Notes under the pieces: generated by a model
The model's input: only the letters and a program-made list of their open reading frames with translations
Database searches by the model: none
Told to the model about the DNA's origin: nothing
Assembly: GCF_000003815.2 (NCBI RefSeq)
Contig: NC_049983.1
Location: 6,381,208-6,445,207 of the forward strand
From: Branchiostoma floridae
Lineage: Eukaryota > Chordata > Leptocardii > Amphioxiformes > Branchiostomatidae
Length of the DNA: 64,000 nucleotides
Direction of reading: 5' to 3'
Program-made: the position numbers and the translations under genes
Shown here: positions 2,603 to 60,985 of the stretch, in pieces
Position numbering within the stretch: the stretch's first letter is position 1
Layout of the letters: each line of letters starts with the position of its first letter

Positions 2603-2801
2603 AAGATACGCAGAATGGTAGTTGATTAAGGATCTGGATAGTTTACCGTATACCTTTCGTCACTTGCGTAAAAAGAAGTGGATAACGAAAAGGTCATTGA
2701 GGAAAGGTAGTGGATGCTACCTGAACGAAGTTTCCAAAGACATATCCAGTTCCTTTACAAACCGCTATGTGGCGTTGTGGTCCGGGGACATTCTTACTCA
2801 C

Positions 2802-2987
2802 CCAGATGAAGAAGGCTGCCGCGCCTGCGCTCACGTCTCGCAGCTGATCCAGATCAAACTTGCTCAGGATCTTCTTGGCGGTCCGCGCCACTTCCGGCCG
2901 GATCTTCTTGATGTCGCACTGCTGCACCCGCCTCTTCAGGTTCTCCTTCCCCGTCTTCCCGATAAACAACCGTACCTCCTGCCAACT
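2802..2987 (-). CDS. Exon: dynein stalk-tip-like domain, second half
   Basis: 62 codons, phase 0 at both ends, acceptor catccag|AGTTGG and a consensus donor ATCTGG|GTGAGT. It begins SWQEVRLFIGKTGKENLKRR and continues with VARTAKKILSKFDLDQLRDV and AAAFFIW. This follows the pattern of the dynein stalk head: a W after the coiled coil, a basic helix, then a 'V-S-A-A/G...W' helix where dyneins usually have AAKSLCMWV. The gene must continue left of 2802. Confidence 0.75.
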
Positions 2988-5900
2988 CTGGATGGGAACA
3001 TTCCGAATGATATTTCACACAAAAATCTGTAACTCTCTTATGCATGTAACAGTTTCGATATGCTGTATGATAATAAAGTTAATGACCCGTCTGTTCCTCG
3101 ATGGCGTCATAATATCCGGGCCTTTGCTATACCTCACCTTACCCTTCCTGCCTCATTTGGTTCGCTTCGCTCATTCGTTGGTTTTATTCGGTGGCTATAG
3201 CAGATTATTGGACATTATAGCATCATATACACCTCGGGGCGGGTCATTAACCATTAATTCATGCCCAAAGGCAAAATTGTATGAGTAACGCTGTTACAGC
3301 AGTACAGTTCGAGAAAAAACACCAAAATAGAAAGTTGAAGATCAAGGGACTGATTGAATGCTTGTTCGTAACTGTTCTACTGTGTCCGGAAATATCGTAT
3401 GAAGACATAATAATGTCAACCACAGTCATATACAGATGGGCTTTGATTCGAACGATGAAGTTGAAACCACCTTCCGTCGACAGGATATTCCTACATATTT
3501 TAAAATAGAACGGATAAAGGTTACCTCGCGGATAAAGGCGAACCATTGTTTTGCTAACAATGTTTCCTTACCTTCATGTTGCTGGCGTCCTCTCCGAGCA
3601 GGAGGTAGGTTGCTAGCATGACTTTGTGCACCGGTTTGGGAGGGTTGGAGTAGGACCGTATCTCTGATATCGTGCTCTGGTTCAGCTGCAGTACTTCGTG
3701 ACGTAAACTGCAAAACGACAAATGACATTTTTGCATCAGAAAGTGTTGGCATGTGCACAGCATTTGGCGACGTCATTTAAGATGGTTGTAACGTCATGGT
3801 TAATCTCGACACACACATATTTGAACTGTATGGTTTGTAACTGCCACTCAGGCGCAGAATGCCTACTTGTAGGTGGATAAAACAAGTCTATAAAAATACA
3901 ATGACTAAACAATATTTAGAAAAAAATACTTAACATTCAAGATCAGAGCAGTGGTTGAAAGTGTGTTTATAAGCACTCTAAGAAAATACCGTGTTTACAG
4001 TCCTGTTGTTTGAGGTTCAATCGAATATAGCAAAAGGAATCGACTCATGCTTAAGTTTGATGACAGCAGAGTGTAACAAATCTTCAACTATGTGTCATAG
4101 TCATCCTGACAATCTTCATATTCGAGAAATCTACATTCTTACTATTTAACATACAGTAATTGATAGACAAAACTGTTTTGCCTTTACAGAGTTGTAAAGT
4201 AGATATGTCCAAAACTGTTTACCTTTCTTAAGACCGTAAGGTACCTACTAGATGTTTACATGCATAATTGATGGTAAAAATTGTTTTGCCTTTAAAGGAC
4301 TTGTAAAAGTACAAACCATGTACATGCCCAAAACTGTTTTACCTTTCTAACAGCCGTAAGGCACATACCTACGAGAGTTTACATACAGTAATTGATGGAC
4401 AAAACTGTCTTGCCTTTACAGGAGTTGTAAAGTATATGTCCAAAACTGGTTTACCTTTCCAGGAGCCGTAAGGACTCTGCGACCCGCTCGGCCTCAGCCA
4501 TGTCCACCCGCAGTCTGTCCGCCAGGCCCTGCTCCCTGACCAGCCGCAGGGTGTTCTCAATGTCGGTCAGGCTGCGCCGGCGGACAGCGTCTCGTAGGAC
4601 TGGATAGGTACGAGTAGATATCATGGTTAAAACATCATACTATTTAGTATAACACTAACTCAAGTGTTGCAGTACCAGAAGAAACCGTAAGGCGAACAGC
4701 GTCTCGTAGCACTGGAGAGACATGAGTGGGTTTGATGACATCATGAAACAGATTCTAGCAATCATCGGTCAACGTTCAACGAATGATATAAAGTGTTGCA
4801 GTACCAAACTAAACCGTTGAGCGAACAGCATCTCCGGCGTAGGACTACACCATGAAACAAGTTGTTGCAGTACCAACACATACCGTAAGGTGAACAATAT
4901 CTCGTAGGACTGCATTGTGGGCATAGTTACACCATGAAATAATTCAAGTCATCGTTCAACGTAGGAAATGCAGATATTTGACGGAAATTTAGCCACGGTC
5001 CCATTGGTCGAACTGTTAATTACTATGCCATCATTTGTTCAATTGCAAATTGTGATTGAAAGCCAGGACCGGATCAACCAATGGCTCCGTCCACCTCCGT
5101 CAAAACGAAGCAATACAGATATTTCACGGAAATTTAGTCACGCTCCTATTGGTCGAACAGCTAATTGCTATGCTATCATTGATAGAAGTGCTAATTGTGA
5201 GTGACAGTCAGACAGACAATTGAACCAACCTAATCGTCGACTTGAGCGGAGGTGGGCGGAGCTATGGGGTCGGTTTGTAGTCATGTTTGTAGTCACATGT
5301 TACTATTTTATAAGAACAATTTTCTTAAGTTACCTTCTCGGAGCTCCAGCTCTTTCTGAACACTTAGCGCATGAAGGAAGACGTCCTCGTCCGTGGACAT
5401 CCCCGCCTCTCGCCACTGCTCCATGGCGGCCTGCAGTTCCGACGGGTCCTTGTCGTGCACAAGCCTTCTTGAGGCGCTCTCGAAGCTTGTCTTCTGAAAA
5501 GTTACATGTTTACTATAATGGTTATGTGATTTACACAAGATATTTGTTGATTTTGTGAGAGGTGAAATCTTGATACATTATCACATAATAAAGACACTAC
5601 TTTTAACATTATTCATCAATCGTTTAGGAGTGTTGTGTGTACATTGTAGACACATTTATACAGTAAAAACTAGTTACAGTAATTGCACAACGGATTACCG
5701 TACACTTCTGTTAATTGCACAGGATCCCCAAATCCCATGGTGGTGCGGTGCAGCTGGATAACTTTGCTTTGTTGCACCACCTAATTGGACGAAGTATCCT
5801 GGCAAATGGGATGTACAATTAAACGGCTTTTACTGCAGCATGTTATTTGTCTACATTTGCATTTATAACTTAGGAGTAAAATGTTAAGAAGAAAAAACTC

Positions 5901-16842: not shown

Positions 16843-17682
16843 TCACTTCATGAGTTCCTGTAGCCCGCAGACCATGTTGGCCGGCACTGCCATGTCGATC
16901 AGGCGGGGGTACGGTAACTTCAGCTCGTTCATGAGCTGTACGAACTCCGCCTTTGGTTTGGACAGTCTCGGGTTGAACTTCTTCTCCTCTGCGACGGTGG
17001 TGACCGTCTGGCCGGTGTAGTCGTGCGCAGGGTACAACTGCGTGTCGTCGGGGAGCGCGAGGATCTTCCCGTGCACGGAGTCGTAGAGCCTCCCGGGGTC
17101 GCCTTGCTGGAAGTCCGTGCGGCCGCACCCGCGGATGAGCAGCGCGTCACCGGTAAACGCTTTACCCTGATTTTTCAACACGAAGGTGAGACATCCGTCG
17201 GTGTGGCCTGGGGTGCTGCGGACTTCCAGCTCGAACTGACCGAACTTGACCGTATCCCCCTCGTCTACCTGGACGTCTGCTACCGCATTGCTCACCTTGG
17301 CGATGACACTCTTCACCGCCGATCTCTTCTTGAGCTCGCCGGTACCTGTTACGTGGTCGGCGTGCACGTGTGTGTTCAGGGCATAGGTCAACCGGAGGCC
17401 GAGCTCCGAGATGACCCGAGTGTCCCGGTCAACCATTTCCATCACTGGGTCTATCAGGACGCATTCTCCGGACTCGCGGTCACCCAAAACATACGTGTAG
17501 GTGAAGCTGGTCTGGTCGAAGAGCTGGCGGAATACAAGGCTTGGATGAGATCTTGTTTCCCCGGCGCAAAGTCCTCTACAGTGCAGGAGAAAGGGGGAGG
17601 GGCGGAGCTCGGTTCGACACCGTTGCACCGAGCTCACGCTTCTCAGGAGCCCCGCAAGAGCCCGTCTCCCTGCCGTAGCCAT
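16843..17682 (-). CDS. ETHE1: Persulfide dioxygenase ETHE1, mitochondrial, intronless
   Basis: A 279-residue protein of the metallo-beta-lactamase fold. The family oxidises glutathione persulfide to sulfite in the mitochondrial matrix, a step of hydrogen sulfide breakdown. Family marks seen: THVHADH (H105, H107, D109, H110), STPGHTDGC (H160), [19 protein letters not shown] (D179) and LYPAHDY (H220), which together give the iron-binding histidines and aspartate. Residues 1-45 are R/S/L-rich with almost no acidic residues, like a mitochondrial presequence. The human protein has 254 residues; the excess here is N-terminal. I chose the ATG at 17682 because it is the only in-frame ATG ahead of the domain and has a strong context (AAGATGG). 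The human gene is split into several exons, whereas this frame is uninterrupted and complete, so it is either a retrocopy that stayed intact or a gene that lost its introns. It has higher GC than its neighbours. Confidence 0.93.
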
Positions 17683-18535
17683 CTTGACGATCCTCTGGCA
17701 CGGAAACACTCCCGTTAGCAAGTGCAGGTTCCTGTTATAGCCGCCGGTTTATAGTGCACCTTTGCGTACGTGCGAGTTGCCCTTGCAGAGTATGACTAAA
17801 CAAATTCTACCCACTCTCGTCCCCACTCCTGGGAACGAGAAGTACACAAAGGTCAACGTCCAGTCGTTTGGAAGAAACCATTCACAGCATTGGGTATCGC
17901 TTTCTGCATCATGCAAAATATCGGAAAAACAATCACTACATGTGCTAGATGGGGTGACGTCAAGTTAGAAAGCAATATTAATGTGATACAAGTTACTAGT
18001 AGTATGTCAACTTAACTCAAGTAAAGGTCTTCTTAGATAAATATTTAATTGTTAAAATTTTTTCCAGCTATGAACACCCCTTTCCTTATATTGAATGTTC
18101 CCAATGGTCACTGAGGTGGGACCGTGCGTATTGGCACGCATTGAAGCAAGGACGTAATGTTTGCTACCTTCAATAAAAGTGACAAACGTTTGTTTACTTA
18201 CTATATAACGTCCTTGCTTACTCGCACGACACATGATTAATTTGGTCAAGTAGGTCTTTTTTAACCTCCTTGGACTGATTGACATAATGGGGTGAGCGGG
18301 CACTTTTCGTTGAACTTTGATATGGTAGTCCTGCAGGTCACTTTTTGACGTTCGACGACGATTACTGCATCAAACGTTTGTTCCTTTCCACCACTAGTAA
18401 ACTTGCATTGAGGAAGTATAGTGTGTACATAGTCGAGTGGTTAGCAGCTATTCCTCTGTAACTAGAAGTTCCCGGCGGCTGCGCATGTACACACTACCGG
18501 AAAGGGTTGCAGTCATTAGGTTGGGACATTGAGTA
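17683..18535. other. ETHE1 upstream region
   Basis: Contains the presumed ETHE1 promoter and 5' UTR. No TATA box is evident. No other feature recognised. Confidence 0.35.
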
Positions 18536-22488: not shown

Positions 22489-24717
22489 TCACACAGGTAG
22501 ATGCGCCACCGATTTTGCTGTGAAGTCTGGTAGTGAAAACACCCGTCTGGAGTCCATCTCTATCCCCGTTTCCTCGCCGCTACTGGATTCCCTGGATGAA
22601 GGGTGGACCCGTGCGGAGGACTGAGTACTCCAGAGGATCATGCTCTGACTCCGGAGGCGGCGGGACCAGCTGTCCGGGGCGGGGTTACGCCGCTGGAACA
22701 CCTGTCGGATGACTGCACGCATTACCTGTAGCAGATAGATAAGATCAAGGAGCTTTTATAGACTATAGGTGAAAAAAGCAAAGGTAGTCCAATGGCCTTT
22801 TTGAAGGCAGTGGGTTGTTGTCCACTCTGCCTAGGACACGGTATTGGAAGGCAAGGCCTAAACGTCCCACACAGCGGAGAAAGGAACACATGTGTATTAT
22901 GGTCTTTAAATGTATTAACGGGCTTGTCCCGACATACTTGGATGCTACCTTTGTACACAACCCTGTTACACAGCCACAACACCAGACAAGCATCTTTGTT
23001 CCATAAACCCAACTACACGAACACAGCTGGCCATCGGACATTTGCATACAGAGGAACAACATACTACAATACACTTTCAGCGGACATTAGACATGCATCA
23101 ACTCTACGGCAGTTTAAGGCTGCCCTAAGACACATACCACGGCACATTGACCTCTGACCTCCACCGTTGACGTTTTTGGCTGACTTTTGACCGTTTTTTA
23201 TTTGTATATATTGTTTGTTGTCCTCTGGTTGTCTTACGGAATGTAACACGTCTTGTTTTAATAGTTATGTAGTGGGCCCCCTTGGAAATCAACTACCAAT
23301 AAGTTGAAGGGGCTACCCACCTGTCTGAAGATCAATAAATAAAAAAAATAATTAAACCTGTCTAACCGAAATCATTTCTACACTTGGATGGAGTGAGAAA
23401 AAATGGTGTCAAGTGCCTTTTCTTAGTTCACAACATCGGTAGCATGAAAGGATTTGAACCCAGAACCTCTGGTGTCTGTACCAAACACATTGTAGTAACG
23501 TCACACGATCCCACGATACAAAATTACCAGAAAGCCACCAGAGGGCGTCCAATCTTATAATTTCTTCAACAGGACATTTAGTTACATAACACATTTCATA
23601 AAAATCCATCCATAGCTTGACTGATGGTGCTAGATAATGTATATCATAAACATACATGGCACACATACTGACACACATACATTTTATAACAGTTACATAC
23701 ATAGCCGTTACATACATACATATATGCATACAAACGCTGCCGAAAATATAATCTTCTTGGCGAAGCTATCATAATCACGGTTAACGTTAATCTTATTACC
23801 AGTGGTATCTCTTGAGCCGACATTTCCGGATAGAGCCGGTCCCGGAAGCGCACGATGACGTCACCGCTCTCCTCAGGCCGCACCTGTGAGCACATGGTCT
23901 CCAGTTCTAACCGGTCCATCTGGGACAGCTGGTAGCGCGACCGGCTGCGGGTGGACGTACATGCCAACCAGCTGTAGTCCACCTTCGTTTGACGGCGCCT
24001 CTCTTCTTCCTACAATCGTGGCGGGAAATTATATAATGGGTGAATGACAGTTCCACAAAGTTATGGTCTCTAGTTCTAACCGGTCCATCTGGGACAGCTG
24101 GTAGCGGGACCGGCTGCGGGTGGACGTGCACGCCAACCAGCTGTATTCCACCTTCGTCTGACGACGTCTCTCTTCTTCCTGCAATCATGGGAAAATGTAA
24201 TGGGTGAATAACAGTTCCGCAAAGTCATGGTCTCCAGTTCTAACCGGTCCATCTGGGACAGCTGGTAGCGGGACCGGCTGCGGGTGGACGTACACGCCAA
24301 CCAGCTGTAGTCCACCTTCGTCTGGCGCCGTCTCTCTTCTTCCTATACAGTCGTGGCGGGAAAGTGGGTGAATAAAAGTTCTGCAATGTCAAAATTTGCT
24401 GTTCACCTTGTAGTGTATAATGTCACATATACCGTACCGATACCCATCTCTAATAGCAACCCCTCCTTGTCAAGATATAACTTTACCCTGCGTGCTAGAG
24501 TCAAGGAGGGATTACTATCATAGATGGGAATCGGTAATGTGTACCTGTACAAAACCGTTTTTGGACCATTGTTTTGAGTGTCGCCCATTCAAAAACAATT
24601 AGGTCCAGGTTCAGGTCCGGACCTAGTTGCTTCTCTTTGATTATGCAAATATAAGGTCATCATTTGCATAAATTCAACCAGTTAACGATCTTTTCTACCT
24701 AAGTGATATAACGTTAA

Positions 24718-27700: not shown

Positions 27701-30700
27701 ATCGAAATGTAACTTTTGTAAGTTTTACAGTTGTCTTTTCATGTCATTATTTTGTGTTTAAAAAAACTTTTGGATGGGCATTGGACTATGGTAAGGTGAA
27801 AAGCGCAAGACAAACCTGACAGACCACACTACGCATAACAATAGCACCAGCTGAGCCCCGATGCAAGTGTCAATTACTTATAATTGCTTCTCAAGGAGGT
27901 GCTAAATAAACTAAGTAATTAGGCTGTCAGATTGATTGGTTGGAGAACATGCCTCTGTAGGTAAAATTTATAGTACAAACTTTAAACCATTTTAAAGGAC
28001 TATAGTAACCTTTCAGGAAAGACCAAAATAACGTTTGATGATCGACCATGTCCTTGTCTACTCTAAAAACAGCCAAAAAACTAGGAAAATGATTCCGTAG
28101 ATTTTATATAAGCCAGAAGGAAAAGAACTACCCTAGAATATCCATCAATAACATAGACAAATAATGATTTTTCAGGAGAAGGAAATATAGTATCATTATA
28201 ATCACCCAGTTTCTGTTCAAAGGTAAGTATTAGCAGCTATACAAAAAAAAACACAAGTATTGAACTTTAGGAATGGTTCTTTAAACTACATTTTCTACCC
28301 CCAAAAATGACTTTATTAATTTATTAAAACAAACAAATTAATACAATATATCAATACCAAATTACTTAGACGCAACGATACACATCCAATCTAACCCTCC
28401 TGCAAATTTGTCAATTTGAAATGCGTATGGCTGACTTATACCCATTTTCACTCCGACCCCAAGTGATAGCTGTAACATGGCCTGGACCACCTTAGTTACG
28501 CAGAGAGTGAAAATGTTTCTAATTAATTAAAAAAACAATATATGGACAGAATGTGCAGAAGGAACCTACAAGAAAGATCTTTGCGGGAAAATAGACAAGA
28601 GTTATTGTATGTATATATATATGTGTATAGATGGCGGAATATGGTGCATAATTAAGTAATAAATTTGTTACTTTTCACAAATATTGTATTTTTTCTTGTT
28701 AAATAACATCATTATGCTATCAGTATTATTGCATCATCACAATTATTGTTTAGAAATTGATGACAAAACATTGTTTAAGTTAAGTTGAGTATGGTAAATT
28801 TTCAGAGCAAATGTGGTTTTTCCTCATTTTCTGCATAAATTATGATAATGAGTAATACCTACTGACACCAAAACTTGTCAAAATATTTTTCATAGGTTAA
28901 TGAAACAGTAAATACATAGAAATGACAAAATAAGCCAGCAGAAATATGTCTATGAGCAAAACAAAATGGGGTCAAAAATGACCCCATACGGTCAGATTCG
29001 TCGTAAAAATGTAACGGTCGGATGAGGGTTAAAAAATCTAATGTCAATATTAATAGAATATCTAACAATTTCATAAGTGGGAGGATAAAATCATGCATCA
29101 CGTAAATAAATTATAGATAAACAATGTCAATGTATATGTGTATGGAGGATGGTTTCCAATTTTCTTTACCCCACCACCAAGCATTTTTGGACCACCCCTA
29201 ATTGCCTACTAAAGGCGGCAATCCTCTGTTATCCTCGGTGTTACAAAGACTCACACACAGAATGCATTATACACGTAAAGCCGTACTTAGAAGCGCCTTC
29301 ATATATACAAGCCATGTTCTCCCATAAAAGCATGTTCGCCAGATTAGTTTTCGTTTGGCGTGTCGCTTTCATTCTAGATCATTCGTGAACCAATGACCAC
29401 AGAGACTCTAGCATAGATAGCATATGATCAGGCAATGATTGGCCCTTTGTACCGAAACCGACTGTTTTTCTTTGATCCATAGAACTGAACGACGCTAGTA
29501 AAACAGTTGTCGATTTTTAAGAAGAATACAATCAATTGCCTCTGTTCTAGATTATTCGTGAACCAATTGATCACAGAGACTCTGGCGCAGATAGCATATG
29601 ATCAGGCAATGATTGTCCTTTTGTACCGAAACCGACTGTTTTTCTTTGATCTATAGAACTGAACGGTGCTAGTAAAACAGTTGTCGATTTTTAAGAAAAA
29701 TACAATCAATTGCCTTCGTTCTAGATCATTCGTGAAACAATGGTTCACAGAGACTCTGGCGTAGATAGCATATGATCAGGTTATGATTGGCCTTTTGTAC
29801 CGAAACCGACTGTTTTTCTTTGATCTATAGAACTGAACGACGCTAGTAAAACAGTTGTCGATTTTTAAGAAAAATACAATCAATTGCCTTTGTTCTAGAT
29901 TATTCGTGAACCAATTGATCACAGAGACTCTGGCGCAGATAGCATATGATCAGGCAATGATTGGCCTTTTGTACCGAAACCGACTGTTTTTCTTTGATCT
30001 ATAGAACTGTACGATGCTAGTAAAACAGTTGCCGATTTCTAGGAAAATGTAATCAATTGCACGTAGACATTGCATGCACCGACAAAGGTGATAGGAATAT
30101 TGTGATTGGATTTGAAGCGTTTTCCTTAGAACCGGGTCTATCAAGTCACATGGCACCAATACATGTATTTACTTTGTAATATAAACATCTTATAGTTTTT
30201 AAATGTAATACGATCTAATACGTGTATGGTGATATTCTATAATATCTGTCATTTCGTGAATCATTTTATCATTGTTGTGAATATGACACGCATTAGAGTG
30301 ACCAAATTGTAAGGGCGTCGAATGAGGTAGAAACATCTTTCATATCCCATATTATTTGACGTGATTTTATGCATTATGCAAGTGTGTGTTATCATATCGC
30401 CTTCACCGACATTATGATATTAATTAGGGCACGTATTTATCTCTAGCTTATCGGATGTCTATTCAAGCAGTAAAATCAAATGCAATCTCTATTCCATCTA
30501 TTCCTTGGGATAAAAATTTAAAAAAATACCTCCATTTTTGCATGGAGGTAAGAAGTGTACATAAATGTATTTAGCTGTTGATCGATTCTCAGCGCTGTTA
30601 AATCCACATATGACCTTTCTACCTTGTCATACCACCCACGGTGGTGATTTGTTTTTGACACCTATATGACGTGGGATGATGAAATGGTCGGAAATTGAAA

Positions 30701-31515
30701 TAATCTCAAGTATGCTCTCGACGTGTTTGGTATCGTGGGAGTATGGCGTTCACTATACATATCATATAACGTTATGTGTAATATTTTACCACCATCTGTT
30801 GCATTAAGCTTACAATAAAGAAATCGTATACTCACTCCCATGAAAAAAGTACAAAACACCTTTAGAAACGTACAAAACACGTCCAGAAAAATTCCCAAAA
30901 TGTCTCCGAAACAACTAGAAATACGTACAAAGCACGTTCAGAAAAAAACGTACAAAACAGTTCCATTAAAACGCATAAAACACCTCCTTGATCCAGAAAA
31001 ACACACGAAACACTTCCATTAAAACGTACAAAACAGAGTTCAATAAAACGGATACGTAAACAAATAACCTCAAAGCAAGTCCACCGCTACTTCTGCTCTG
31101 CGATACGGGAAATTGCTATTTGGTGATAACATTCACATCTGCAATAGGTACATGTATATACGAGAACAATTCATCGTACATATAATACACATAAGAAATG
31201 TCGCGTACTGCGCACAATATCTAAATCCTACCTCTAATGGCCTGGCCTATTGCTAAATCGTTAAATTTTAAAAAATTATAATATTCACATCTGCAGTACA
31301 CGTAGGCATATACGACAACGATACATCCCTAACGTTATAACACACATAACAAATGCCGCGCACAATACCTCTCTTTCCCTGGCTAGCCGATCCGCCTCTC
31401 GTAGCTGCCACTCTAGCTCGGTCATGAGGCAGTCAGCCACCACCATACTGTCCGGCTTCTGTCCGGGGAACTGCTGCTCGCTCCCCGTCCATGGCAACCA
31501 TGACGACAGGGGCAT
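22489..31515 (-). CDS. RD3: RD3-like protein (retinal degeneration 3 family), 3 coding exons
   Basis: Exons: 31515-31369 (49 codons), 24009-23800 (70 codons) and 22725-22489 (78 codons plus stop), all phase 0, total 197 aa; human RD3 has 195. The start MPLSSWLPWTGSEQQ parallels human MSLISWLRWNEAPS. 'TELEWQLREADRLARERE' then 'VDYSWLACTSTRSRSRYQLS' and 'MDRLELETMCSQV' follow the family core (VDYSWL, Y-x-L-S-x-x-[ED]-R-L-x-L-E). The last exon VMRAVIRQVFQRR and RRVFSLPDF matches the family's LFRSVLQEVLER and RSWSMPEF. In vertebrates RD3 binds retinal membrane guanylate cyclase, inhibits it and is needed for its traffic to the outer segment; that role here is inference. It could equally be called RD3L-like. 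The ATG has A at -3. Exon 2 lies in a tandem array with two extra partial copies. Intron 1 is 7.4 kb and full of repeats. Confidence 0.9.
22863..23345 (+). mobile_element. 5'-truncated LINE, RT C-terminal end and tail
   Basis: Frames here give RRKEHMCIMVFKCINGLVPT YLDATF, then RTFAYRGTTYYNTLSADIRH and STLRQFKAALR. This is the typical last ~100 residues of a CR1/L2-type reverse transcriptase ('...R-G..W.N.LP...R...S...FK..L'). The frame shifts once, at about 23006-23030. The element ends with 'caataaataaaaaaaataat'. It sits in RD3 intron 2, on the opposite strand. Confidence 0.8.
23430..23530 (-). mobile_element. tRNA-like SINE head, degenerate
   Basis: On the minus strand GGTTCTGGGTTCAAATCCTTTC forms a B box, following 'acaatgtgtttggtacagac'. 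A related piece, also on the minus strand, is at 37915-37990. Too diverged for a tRNA gene. Confidence 0.4.
23894..24391. repeat. Threefold tandem repeat (~164-169 bp) containing RD3 exon 2
   Basis: The landmark 'atggtctc.agttctaaccgg' begins at 23894, 24063 and 24227. Each unit carries the acceptor AG and the first ~117 bases of RD3 exon 2, plus ~50 bases of intron. Only the 23.8-24.0 kb copy continues to a full exon with a donor. The two upstream copies keep AG|GAAGAAG at about 24178 and 24342 and keep the VDYSWL or VEYSWL coding, but have no donor. Unit lengths are not multiples of three, so read-through would shift frame. Confidence 0.92.
24717..24752. repeat. (CA)n microsatellite
   Basis: About 16 CA units with one interruption, in RD3 intron 1. 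Confidence 0.95.
24868..24996 (+). mobile_element. LINE 3' tail with (ATTC)n
   Basis: 'tgccatacattgtaccctgt', 'gcaataaattc' and then four ATTC units. The first motif also occurs at 44869 in another LINE tail, so this is a severely 5'-truncated copy. Confidence 0.6.
25533..29028. mobile_element. piggyBac-like non-autonomous element, 3.5 kb
   Basis: Ends CCCTCATCCGACCG and CGGTCGGATGAGGG are perfect 14-bp inverted repeats flanked by TTAA on both sides (25529-25532, 29029-29032), the piggyBac signature. Next to each end is GACCGTATGGGGTCATTTTT, itself part of a small palindrome GGGGTCAT..GACCCC. A 25-bp subterminal inverted repeat joins about 25964-25988 ('ctgcgcgactaaggtggccc') and 28480-28505 ('ggaccaccttagttacgcag'). 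No frame longer than 83 codons exists inside and no transposase is seen, so it is non-autonomous. It lies in RD3 intron 1. Confidence 0.85.
26837..26912 (+). mobile_element. tRNA-like SINE head inside the piggyBac-like element
   Basis: A box TGGCTTAGTTGGTAAGGG and B box GGGTTCGAAACC about 40 bases apart. The acceptor stem does not pair, so this is a SINE remnant or tRNA pseudogene, not a tRNA gene. Confidence 0.4.
29373..30060. repeat. Four-copy tandem satellite, 173-174-bp unit
   Basis: Units begin 'tctagat.attcgtgaa' at 29373, 29546, 29720 and 29894. Each contains 'cacagagactct.gc', 'gatagcatatgatcaggcaa', 'tttgtaccgaaaccgactgt' and 'agtaaaacagttg.cgattt', and ends 'tacaatcaattgc'. Copies are about 95% alike, so the array is young. 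In RD3 intron 1. Confidence 0.95.
30838..31055. repeat. Degenerate A-rich minisatellite
   Basis: Blocks of 'cgtacaaaacac.t.cagaaaa' and 'ccattaaaacg' repeat with a ~20-30-bp period. Confidence 0.75.
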
Positions 31516-49841: not shown

Positions 49842-50231
49842 ATACACCTTTCTCACGCGGCGGCCATGATAGATCGAAGACGAGGTCAATGAGGCAAACA
49901 GACAAAACTTATTTCTAAAATCAGGTCCAATTTAGTTTTTCCCCAAACCACACAAATTTTCATGATATAAGATAAAATAATAAATATTATAATTAGTGTT
50001 ATGCACCGAAAAATGTAGCAATTTATAGTAGTGTAGACTGATCCCATAGTCTCTTAATAGATGCAAAATAAAAACATAATCATGCAAATATTTGACGGAC
50101 TTCACTTATTGGTCGCTTTTCTAATTGGGAGGCTATCATTAGTTGAACTGCTAATTATGATGGACAGTCTTTTGTTTGCCGCATTGAACTCGTTTTAGAT
50201 CTATCATGGCCGCCGCGTGAGAAAGGTGTAT
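49842..50231. mobile_element. MITE family E, 390 bp, ~33-bp inverted ends
   Basis: 'cacctttctcacgcggcggc' plus 'catgatagatc' at the left is inverted at the right as 'gatctatcatggccgccgcg' plus 'tgagaaaggtg'. TA dinucleotides flank both ends. Inside, 'atttgacgga' and 'gttgaactgctaattatgat' resemble 4962-5215. Confidence 0.85.
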
Positions 50232-59625: not shown

Positions 59626-60452
59626 GGTGTCCTCAAAGTGGGGTCAAGACACAGGTGTGTGTATTTTGTCGTTCCTTGGTATAGCTCGGCTGCAACGGTT
59701 AGGGTTTTGTTATGGTCTGACTTGGTGGTGTACTGTGAGTAGGCCATATCCATAGACGCATACACACATGGCGGTATCACTTGTAGGTCAACCGTGGTCT
59801 ACCTCGACAGACGTACCCGGATATCCTGTCCCGTCGAAAACTCGACATAGGATTGTTTGAACGGCGAGACAGGAGCGTAGCCTTTTCTTTTCGTTGTAGT
59901 TTATTTGATAAGAGATCAACAGCTTTTTTTTCACCACCCACTCTCCTTTCGGACGGTTCTCTCGTATAATAGGTCTACGTGACGCATAGAATGGTGTTCT
60001 CGTTTTGCAATGTATACGTATACTCGGCGAATGCCAATTATCAAACCTTGGACGCTTGGAATTGGTGGCCTGGTTTCTGGTATTTTGTCTAGGTCGATTT
60101 GAATATAATGGTCGTATATTCTATCAAACTGATGCAGTACCGTTTTACGTTATGCATTTATTACTTATAATCTATGACGTTATATTAAACGTCCTTGCTT
60201 AAATGGCTCTTATTTGTTTCTTACGTCTATACCTATGCCTTCAGACATTTCCCCAGACGTCATACTAGAAGGACATTTACGTGGGACTATGTCTAGACCT
60301 CAGGTGTCTTAAGCAAGGTCAACAGACTAGACTTTTGCATAGGCCCACAGGCCCCGGCCCAGACCGCTACGCGGGAACTGTTTTGGGTCTAAACCGGAGC
60401 CGAACCGGATATCCGGTGTGGTCTGTCGCGTTGTGGCGGGCTGCGAACCACT

Positions 60453-60985
60453 AAACTGTCCATGAGTAGGCTACTGATGTAATTGAGAAAGCTTGGTCTC
60501 TTCTCAGAAAAACCGCCTTCGTAGAGCGAGGGAGAGAGACTCAGAGAGGGAGGGAGTGGGTTTCGAAGGTGCGTGTTTGTTTTTTTATACTACGCGTAGC
60601 TGGTAAACAAATAGTGTTTGTCTAAACTGTCCATGAGTAGGCTACTGACATGACTGATATAATTGAGAGAGCTTGGTTTCGTCTCATCAGACGAAAAACC
60701 GCCCTGGTGTAGAGAGAAGGAGAGAGAGTGGGTTGGTGTGAAGGTGCGTGGGTTATTTTATACTACGCGTAGCTGGTAAACAAATAGTGTTAATCTAAAC
60801 TTTACTGTCCATGAGTAGGCTACTGATATAATTGAGAAAGCTATTAAAGGTCTCGTCTCGTCAGAGGGAAAACCGCCCAGGTGTAGAAAGAGGGAGAGAG
60901 AGAGAGGGTGGGTTGGTGTGAAGGTGCGTGGGTTTTTGGTACTACATGTACACGCGTAGCTAGTGAAGAAATAGTGTTTGTGTAG
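60453..60985. repeat. Threefold tandem repeat, ~171-178-bp unit
   Basis: Landmark 'ctgtccatgagtaggctact' at 60456, 60627 and 60805. Each unit continues 'tgatataattgagaaagct', 'aaaaccgcc...gtagag', a (GA)n tract, 'gaaggtgcgtg.gt', 'tatactacgcgtagctggta' and 'aaatagtgtt'. Confidence 0.92.

Follow-up and report, generated by a model that had tools for sequence, protein, structure and literature searches.

An apparent two-sided mirage: copies of both splice borders flank one exon of a dynein-like gene in Branchiostoma floridae

Repeats spanning intron-exon boundaries have been described in the amphioxus globin genes BflGb6 and BflGb9 and were named mirages after the case of Adh3 (PMC3087553, used here and below in excerpt). 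According to that text, duplication can affect 5′ as well as 3′ boundaries, the Adh3 data together with RT-PCR of globin transcripts suggest that regular splicing is undisturbed, mirages are proposed to create introns in amphioxus globins, and one of them was apparently misassembled in the genome draft (PMC3087553). Exons 3 and 4 of PGBD5 also carry border repeats, which were confirmed by re-sequencing with heterozygosity left open by the authors, and troponin C is cited there as a further case (PMC3902484, likewise in excerpt). In addition, the excerpted text of a paper on amphioxus huntingtin mentions tandem repeats in passing (PMC2206037).

The window analysed in this work is a stretch of 64,000 nucleotides of B. 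floridae DNA, to which all positions refer. At exon 4599-4455, near-tandem repeats that combine exon bases with intron bases across a border, by which mirages are recognised, were found on each side (Table 1), and on sequence grounds this exon looks like a further, two-sided example of the known amphioxus mirages. As in BflGb6 and BflGb9, tandem copies span the boundaries and splice signals are kept in many of them, the globin units being of 150-160 bp; on the other hand, BflGb6 is duplicated on the acceptor side and BflGb9 on the donor side, one side per exon, whereas both sides are duplicated here, and the copies are 73-89% identical as compared with 81-100% in BflGb6 (PMC3087553). Imperfect repeats with splice sites are shared with PGBD5, where units measure 60 and 108 bp; there, two different exons are affected and copy number varies between assemblies, whereas our case concerns one exon in one sequence (PMC3902484). 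Adh3 offers the parallel of a minisatellite lying across an exon-intron border, with reported somatic instability and units of 10-72 bp, in contrast to 112-120 for the donor-side units of this locus (via PMC3087553 and PMC3902484). Copies flanking a single exon on both sides are not described in the available portions of PMC3087553 or PMC3902484. Searches of open-licence papers turned up no mention of RD3 or dynein, although earlier reports of either case may exist elsewhere. The original prediction was right in linking the locus to the repeats of amphioxus Adh, but wrong in presenting it as a second example, since BflGb6, BflGb9, troponin C and PGBD5 had already been reported; that count is also undercut by an array in the RD3 gene within the same window. 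The new details are the two-sidedness, a hint of internally deleted exon copies, and the third-position pattern of the RD3 array.

Table 1. Positions of the exon, its border copies and related repeats in the window.
Feature	Positions	Strand	Details
Exon	4455..4599	-	145 nt; phase 1 at its start, phase 2 at its end
dn1, copy of last 19 exon bases	4343..4361	-	CCTTACGGCTGTTAGAAAG then GTAAAA; decoy donor, exon end 4343
dn2, copy of last 19 exon bases	4223..4241	-	CCTTACGGTCTTAAGAAAG then GTAAAC; decoy donor, exon end 4223
Donor-side array	4146..4473	-	real unit and two copies, each exon tail plus ~100 nt matching intron
Self-BLAST match	4146-4241 vs 4378-4473		89%, E 9e-27
Self-BLAST match	4255-4473 vs 4146-4361		74%, E 2e-34
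up1, exon-head copy	4691..4711	-	decoy acceptor 4711
up2, exon-head copy broken by 4-nt insertion	4821..4844	-	decoy acceptor 4844
up3, exon-head copy	4889..4909	-	decoy acceptor 4909
Possible mini-exon in up1	4676..4711	-	36 nt; head plus tail-like octamer; weak donor GTACTG
Self-BLAST match	4661-4775 vs 4858-4962		73%, E 2e-10
Self-BLAST match	4791-4834 vs 4662-4705		84%, E 3e-7
Self-BLAST match	4579-4615 vs 4691-4727		84%, E 5e-5
Further local duplication, same upstream intron	4967..5211		100-nt unit in two copies at an offset of 145; no recognisable exon bases
RD3 border-spanning array	23893..24391	-	three units; acceptors 24342, 24178, 24009; acceptor and first 117 nt of exon 24009-23800 in each

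On the minus strand, the tail of the exon reads CCTTACGGCTCCTGGAAAG and is followed by GTAAAC. The two copies of this donor that had been predicted downstream were indeed found, with 19 exon bases each and at irregular spacings of 112 and 120. Compared by eye, dn1 differs from the exon at synonymous sites only (3/3), and the dn2 tail shows a TAA in the aligned frame. Between the real unit and dn2, the 64 intron positions show 2 differences and the 19 positions of the exon tail show 6 (Fisher P 0.0015), the tail difference shrinking once gaps are allowed; this patchwork suggests a possible local conversion or the duplication of a two-unit block, a reading on which we do not lean. No significant match to the exon head was obtained in the downstream copies (455/1000 shuffles as good), nor to the head together with the end of the upstream intron (160/1000). 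Just before dn1, at 4368-4369 of the minus strand, there is a combined acceptor/donor-like site, TCTCGTAG followed by GTATGT, with a donor score of 4.0 vs 3.5 for the real donor.

The head of the exon, TCCTACGAGACGCTGTCCGCC, is preceded by CAG. Its three predicted copies in the preceding intron were likewise recovered, each preceded by AG and containing 21-24 exon bases, with irregular spacings of 112, 133 and 65. Inclusion of exon bases in the copies was borne out by self-comparison through both self-BLAST and shuffles. The differences between up1 and the exon also fall at synonymous sites only (2/2, by eye), and, judging from the other copies, three of the synonymous changes of dn1 and up1 look as if they had occurred in the exon itself.

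Local alignment of the first 25 nt of the exon with the adjoining intron gave a score of 34 (shuffle maximum 24), and that of the last 25 nt a score of 26 (shuffle maximum 24.5), with 0/1000 shuffles as good in either case; no copy of the 95-nt exon middle was detected in either flanking intron (677/1000 and 862/1000 shuffles as good). As a further control, 4000 segments of 145 nt were drawn at random, 145 of them being skipped for proximity to the locus or gaps, and copies were sought within 350 nt. Among the 3855 segments used, 18 attained both scores of the exon at once, 106 the head score, and 152 the tail score. None of seven other exons tested reached a head score of 34 or a tail score of 26; the closest was RD3 exon 24009-23800 with a head score of 32, the remaining heads scoring at most 19.5 and no tail above 14. 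The border copies are thus far beyond chance.

The exon has a G+C content of 67%, and its flanking introns of 42% and 35%. No stop is met in frame from the last 13 bases of exon 5493-5334 through exon 4599-4455 into exon 3707-3572, and the remainder of exon 5493-5334 is also open in the frame that joins exon 4599-4455. Read by eye, the start of exon 5493-5334 (minus strand) makes sense in one frame and its remainder in a second, and only the former is compatible, again by eye, with the donor of the preceding exon (~5905); this mismatch may reflect a sequence error or an exon that was missed. Exon 4599-4455 looks like part of a dynein-like gene. The two exons that follow it gave a weak, sub-threshold Pfam match to MT, the microtubule-binding stalk (E 0.0082, 15.6 bits, cut-off 24), and a PDB sequence search with the same two exons returned a cytoplasmic dynein chain as best match (E 0.0054), unrelated proteins accounting for two of the 29 hits with E up to 1. 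When exon 4599-4455 and the preceding exon were added, MT appeared at E 0.021 alongside other weak families; exon 4599-4455 itself has no dynein stalk match, being left uncovered by Pfam MT. The host gene may be DNHD1, a name that is not given by any search result. On the minus strand, the tail and the head of the exon are similar in sequence (AGTCCTTACGG at 4465-4475 and AGTCCTACGAG at 4591-4601), a resemblance that might have seeded recombination.

Splice sites from 2800 to 5600 were scored with a consensus matrix and by U1 duplex. The real donor and both decoy donors scored alike (3.5, U1 duplex -6.8; ranks 7 to 9 of 184 GT sites). Among 168 acceptors, the real one ranked 5, and decoys 4711, 4844 and 4909 ranked 1, 9 and 22, respectively, so that decoy 4711 outscores the real acceptor. 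Since some decoys score like or above the real sites, score alone fails to mark the latter. The splice dinucleotide, AG or GT, is kept in all five copies. Judging by site score, it is plausible that decoys might compete with the real sites. Each of the 11 non-canonical acceptor/donor pairs runs into a stop after 25 to 53 translated codons, four codons of the preceding exon included; two of the 11 keep the overall frame and yet still meet a stop. Two mini-exons could also be drawn. The 36-nt one at 4711-4676, placed before the real exon, leaves the frame open, its donor ranking 48 of 184 GT sites, and inclusion of a 26-nt one at 4909-4884, whose donor-like ACG/GTATGT at 4884 scores about as the real donor, brings in a stop codon.

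The second clear border-spanning array of the window lies in a gene whose minus-strand exons, with borders read by eye (an exon ending at 31369, 24009-23800 and 22725-22489), encode an RD3 protein (Pfam 3.6e-36). The acceptors at 24342, 24178 and 24009 score -0.0, 5.2 and 2.0, respectively, one decoy thereby outscoring the real site, and use of decoys 24342 and 24178 leads to a stop after 93 and 54 codons, respectively, five of them from the preceding exon. Within the 117 nt of exon shared by the units, 10 sites vary, each of them a third codon position (naive chance 1.7e-5); eight are synonymous, and both amino-acid changes fall in unit u2. When the comparison is extended to 126 nt there are 17 variable sites (2, 3 and 12 by codon position), the last 9 nt being judged to lie beyond the repeat end. 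The intron parts of the units differ by 17-24% over 46-49 aligned bases, with gaps. Because the exon parts vary at third positions only while the introns have diverged, the RD3 copies appear to have served as coding sequence over much of their past, and exchange between diverged alleles of a working RD3 exon would explain the pattern. A separate duplication with an offset of 152 nt (31126-31363, minus strand) starts a few bases beyond the donor (31369) of the first RD3 exon identified.

Local tandem duplication is widespread in the window, where 16 clusters make up 9.6% of the 64 kb; among other arrays, those at 29365-30060 and 60451-60984 have units of ~174 and ~173 nt. In a small placement test with hand-entered cluster spans and an incomplete list of 16 exon borders read from the sequence, three borders fell inside clusters vs 1.5 expected under rotation (P 0.18), border 4599 counting only through the 4579-4727 match of a laxer BLAST table, otherwise two. 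No excess of exon borders in tandem clusters was therefore shown for these 16 borders; chance placement may suffice, and special targeting of borders is not needed. A transposable element was rejected as the source, as no other part of the window matches the border units (E up to 1e-3), and so was a common origin of both arrays of the exon, since the similarity of the downstream array to the upstream intron is within chance (266/300 shuffles as good). The neighbouring duplication of 145-nt offset has a 63-nt match of 76% at 50107-50169.

The border copies are most probably a degenerate mirage, that is, minisatellite-like intronic duplications that took in both borders of one exon. We prefer this explanation because the copies exceed chance, precedents of similar unit length exist, all the non-canonical pairs end in stops, and RD3 provides a companion case. 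Like other repeats of this repeat-rich window, the copies would have originated through recurrent local tandem duplication and unequal exchange. The spliceosome would use the sites beside the G+C-rich exon body, allowing the copies to persist, and any use of decoys would yield early-stop transcripts that would be degraded; no function of the copies is required. For accurate splicing and length polymorphism at this locus, we rely on what the literature makes likely.

It may be that what is left upstream derives from duplicates of the whole exon and not just of its borders. As a full alternative, tandem duplication of the whole exon would have left upstream copies that are exons minus their middle, head joined to tail, in an exon graveyard, which we regard as possible but unlikely. 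The tail octamer CCTTACGG stands directly after the copied head in up1 and up3, in changed form in up2, and occurs six times in the window on both strands, five of them at the locus on the coding strand. At this fixed place, up1 matches the exon tail plus donor in a way equalled by 26/2000 shuffles, and only 6 of 393 control segments align as well with up1 as the tail does, all of them overlapping the tail itself. Summed over up1 to up3, the tail alignment was matched by 53/2000 shuffles, but 23 of the 393 control segments equal this sum, several of them away from the tail. An unplaced search for a tail match upstream was not significant (147/1000 and 101/1000 shuffles as good), the resemblance between exon ends AGTCCTACGAG and AGTCCTTACGG means that the octamer could have come by other routes, and the absence of the exon middle from both introns also speaks against whole-exon copies.

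The coding signature in RD3 bears on another reading, which we hold to be rather doubtful. In this scenario, border copies would be renewed from working exons by unequal exchange between diverged alleles, exons turning into decoys and perhaps back; the upstream copies of the dynein-like gene would then be old, internally deleted ones, one of which could still serve as an in-frame 36-nt mini-exon.

That the copies are in use, through alternative or poison splicing at decoys or via the 36-nt mini-exon, and so control how much protein is made or in which form, appears improbable. The strength of the decoy donors and of acceptor 4711, the open frame across mini-exon 4711-4676 and the stop brought by the 26-nt mini-exon would all suit such a role; however, donor GTACTG of the 36-nt mini-exon is of low rank, the outer copies have decayed (the insertion in up2, the TAA in the dn2 tail), and the excerpted Adh3 and globin data suggest undisturbed regular splicing (PMC3087553). 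An assembly artefact, with haplotypes or reads joined in tandem, has a precedent in the apparently misassembled globin mirage (PMC3087553, in excerpt) but is highly improbable here, as copies that are irregular and differ by ~10-30% with different indels exceed what is expected from stuttered reads of one locus, and the PGBD5 repeats withstood re-sequencing (PMC3902484, in excerpt).

An exon flanked by near-identical donors and acceptors that are similarly strong constitutes a natural test of site choice by the spliceosome, and border repeats also test whether new introns or exons can grow out of them, as the excerpted report proposes for amphioxus globins (PMC3087553). With two clear cases within 64 kb, border-spanning repeats may be common in the genome, and the two-sidedness and the RD3 coding signature are the parts worth following. 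Elsewhere in the window, a 301-codon open frame on the minus strand (16846-17748), possibly ETHE1, encodes a metallo-beta-lactamase domain (Pfam 3.9e-20).
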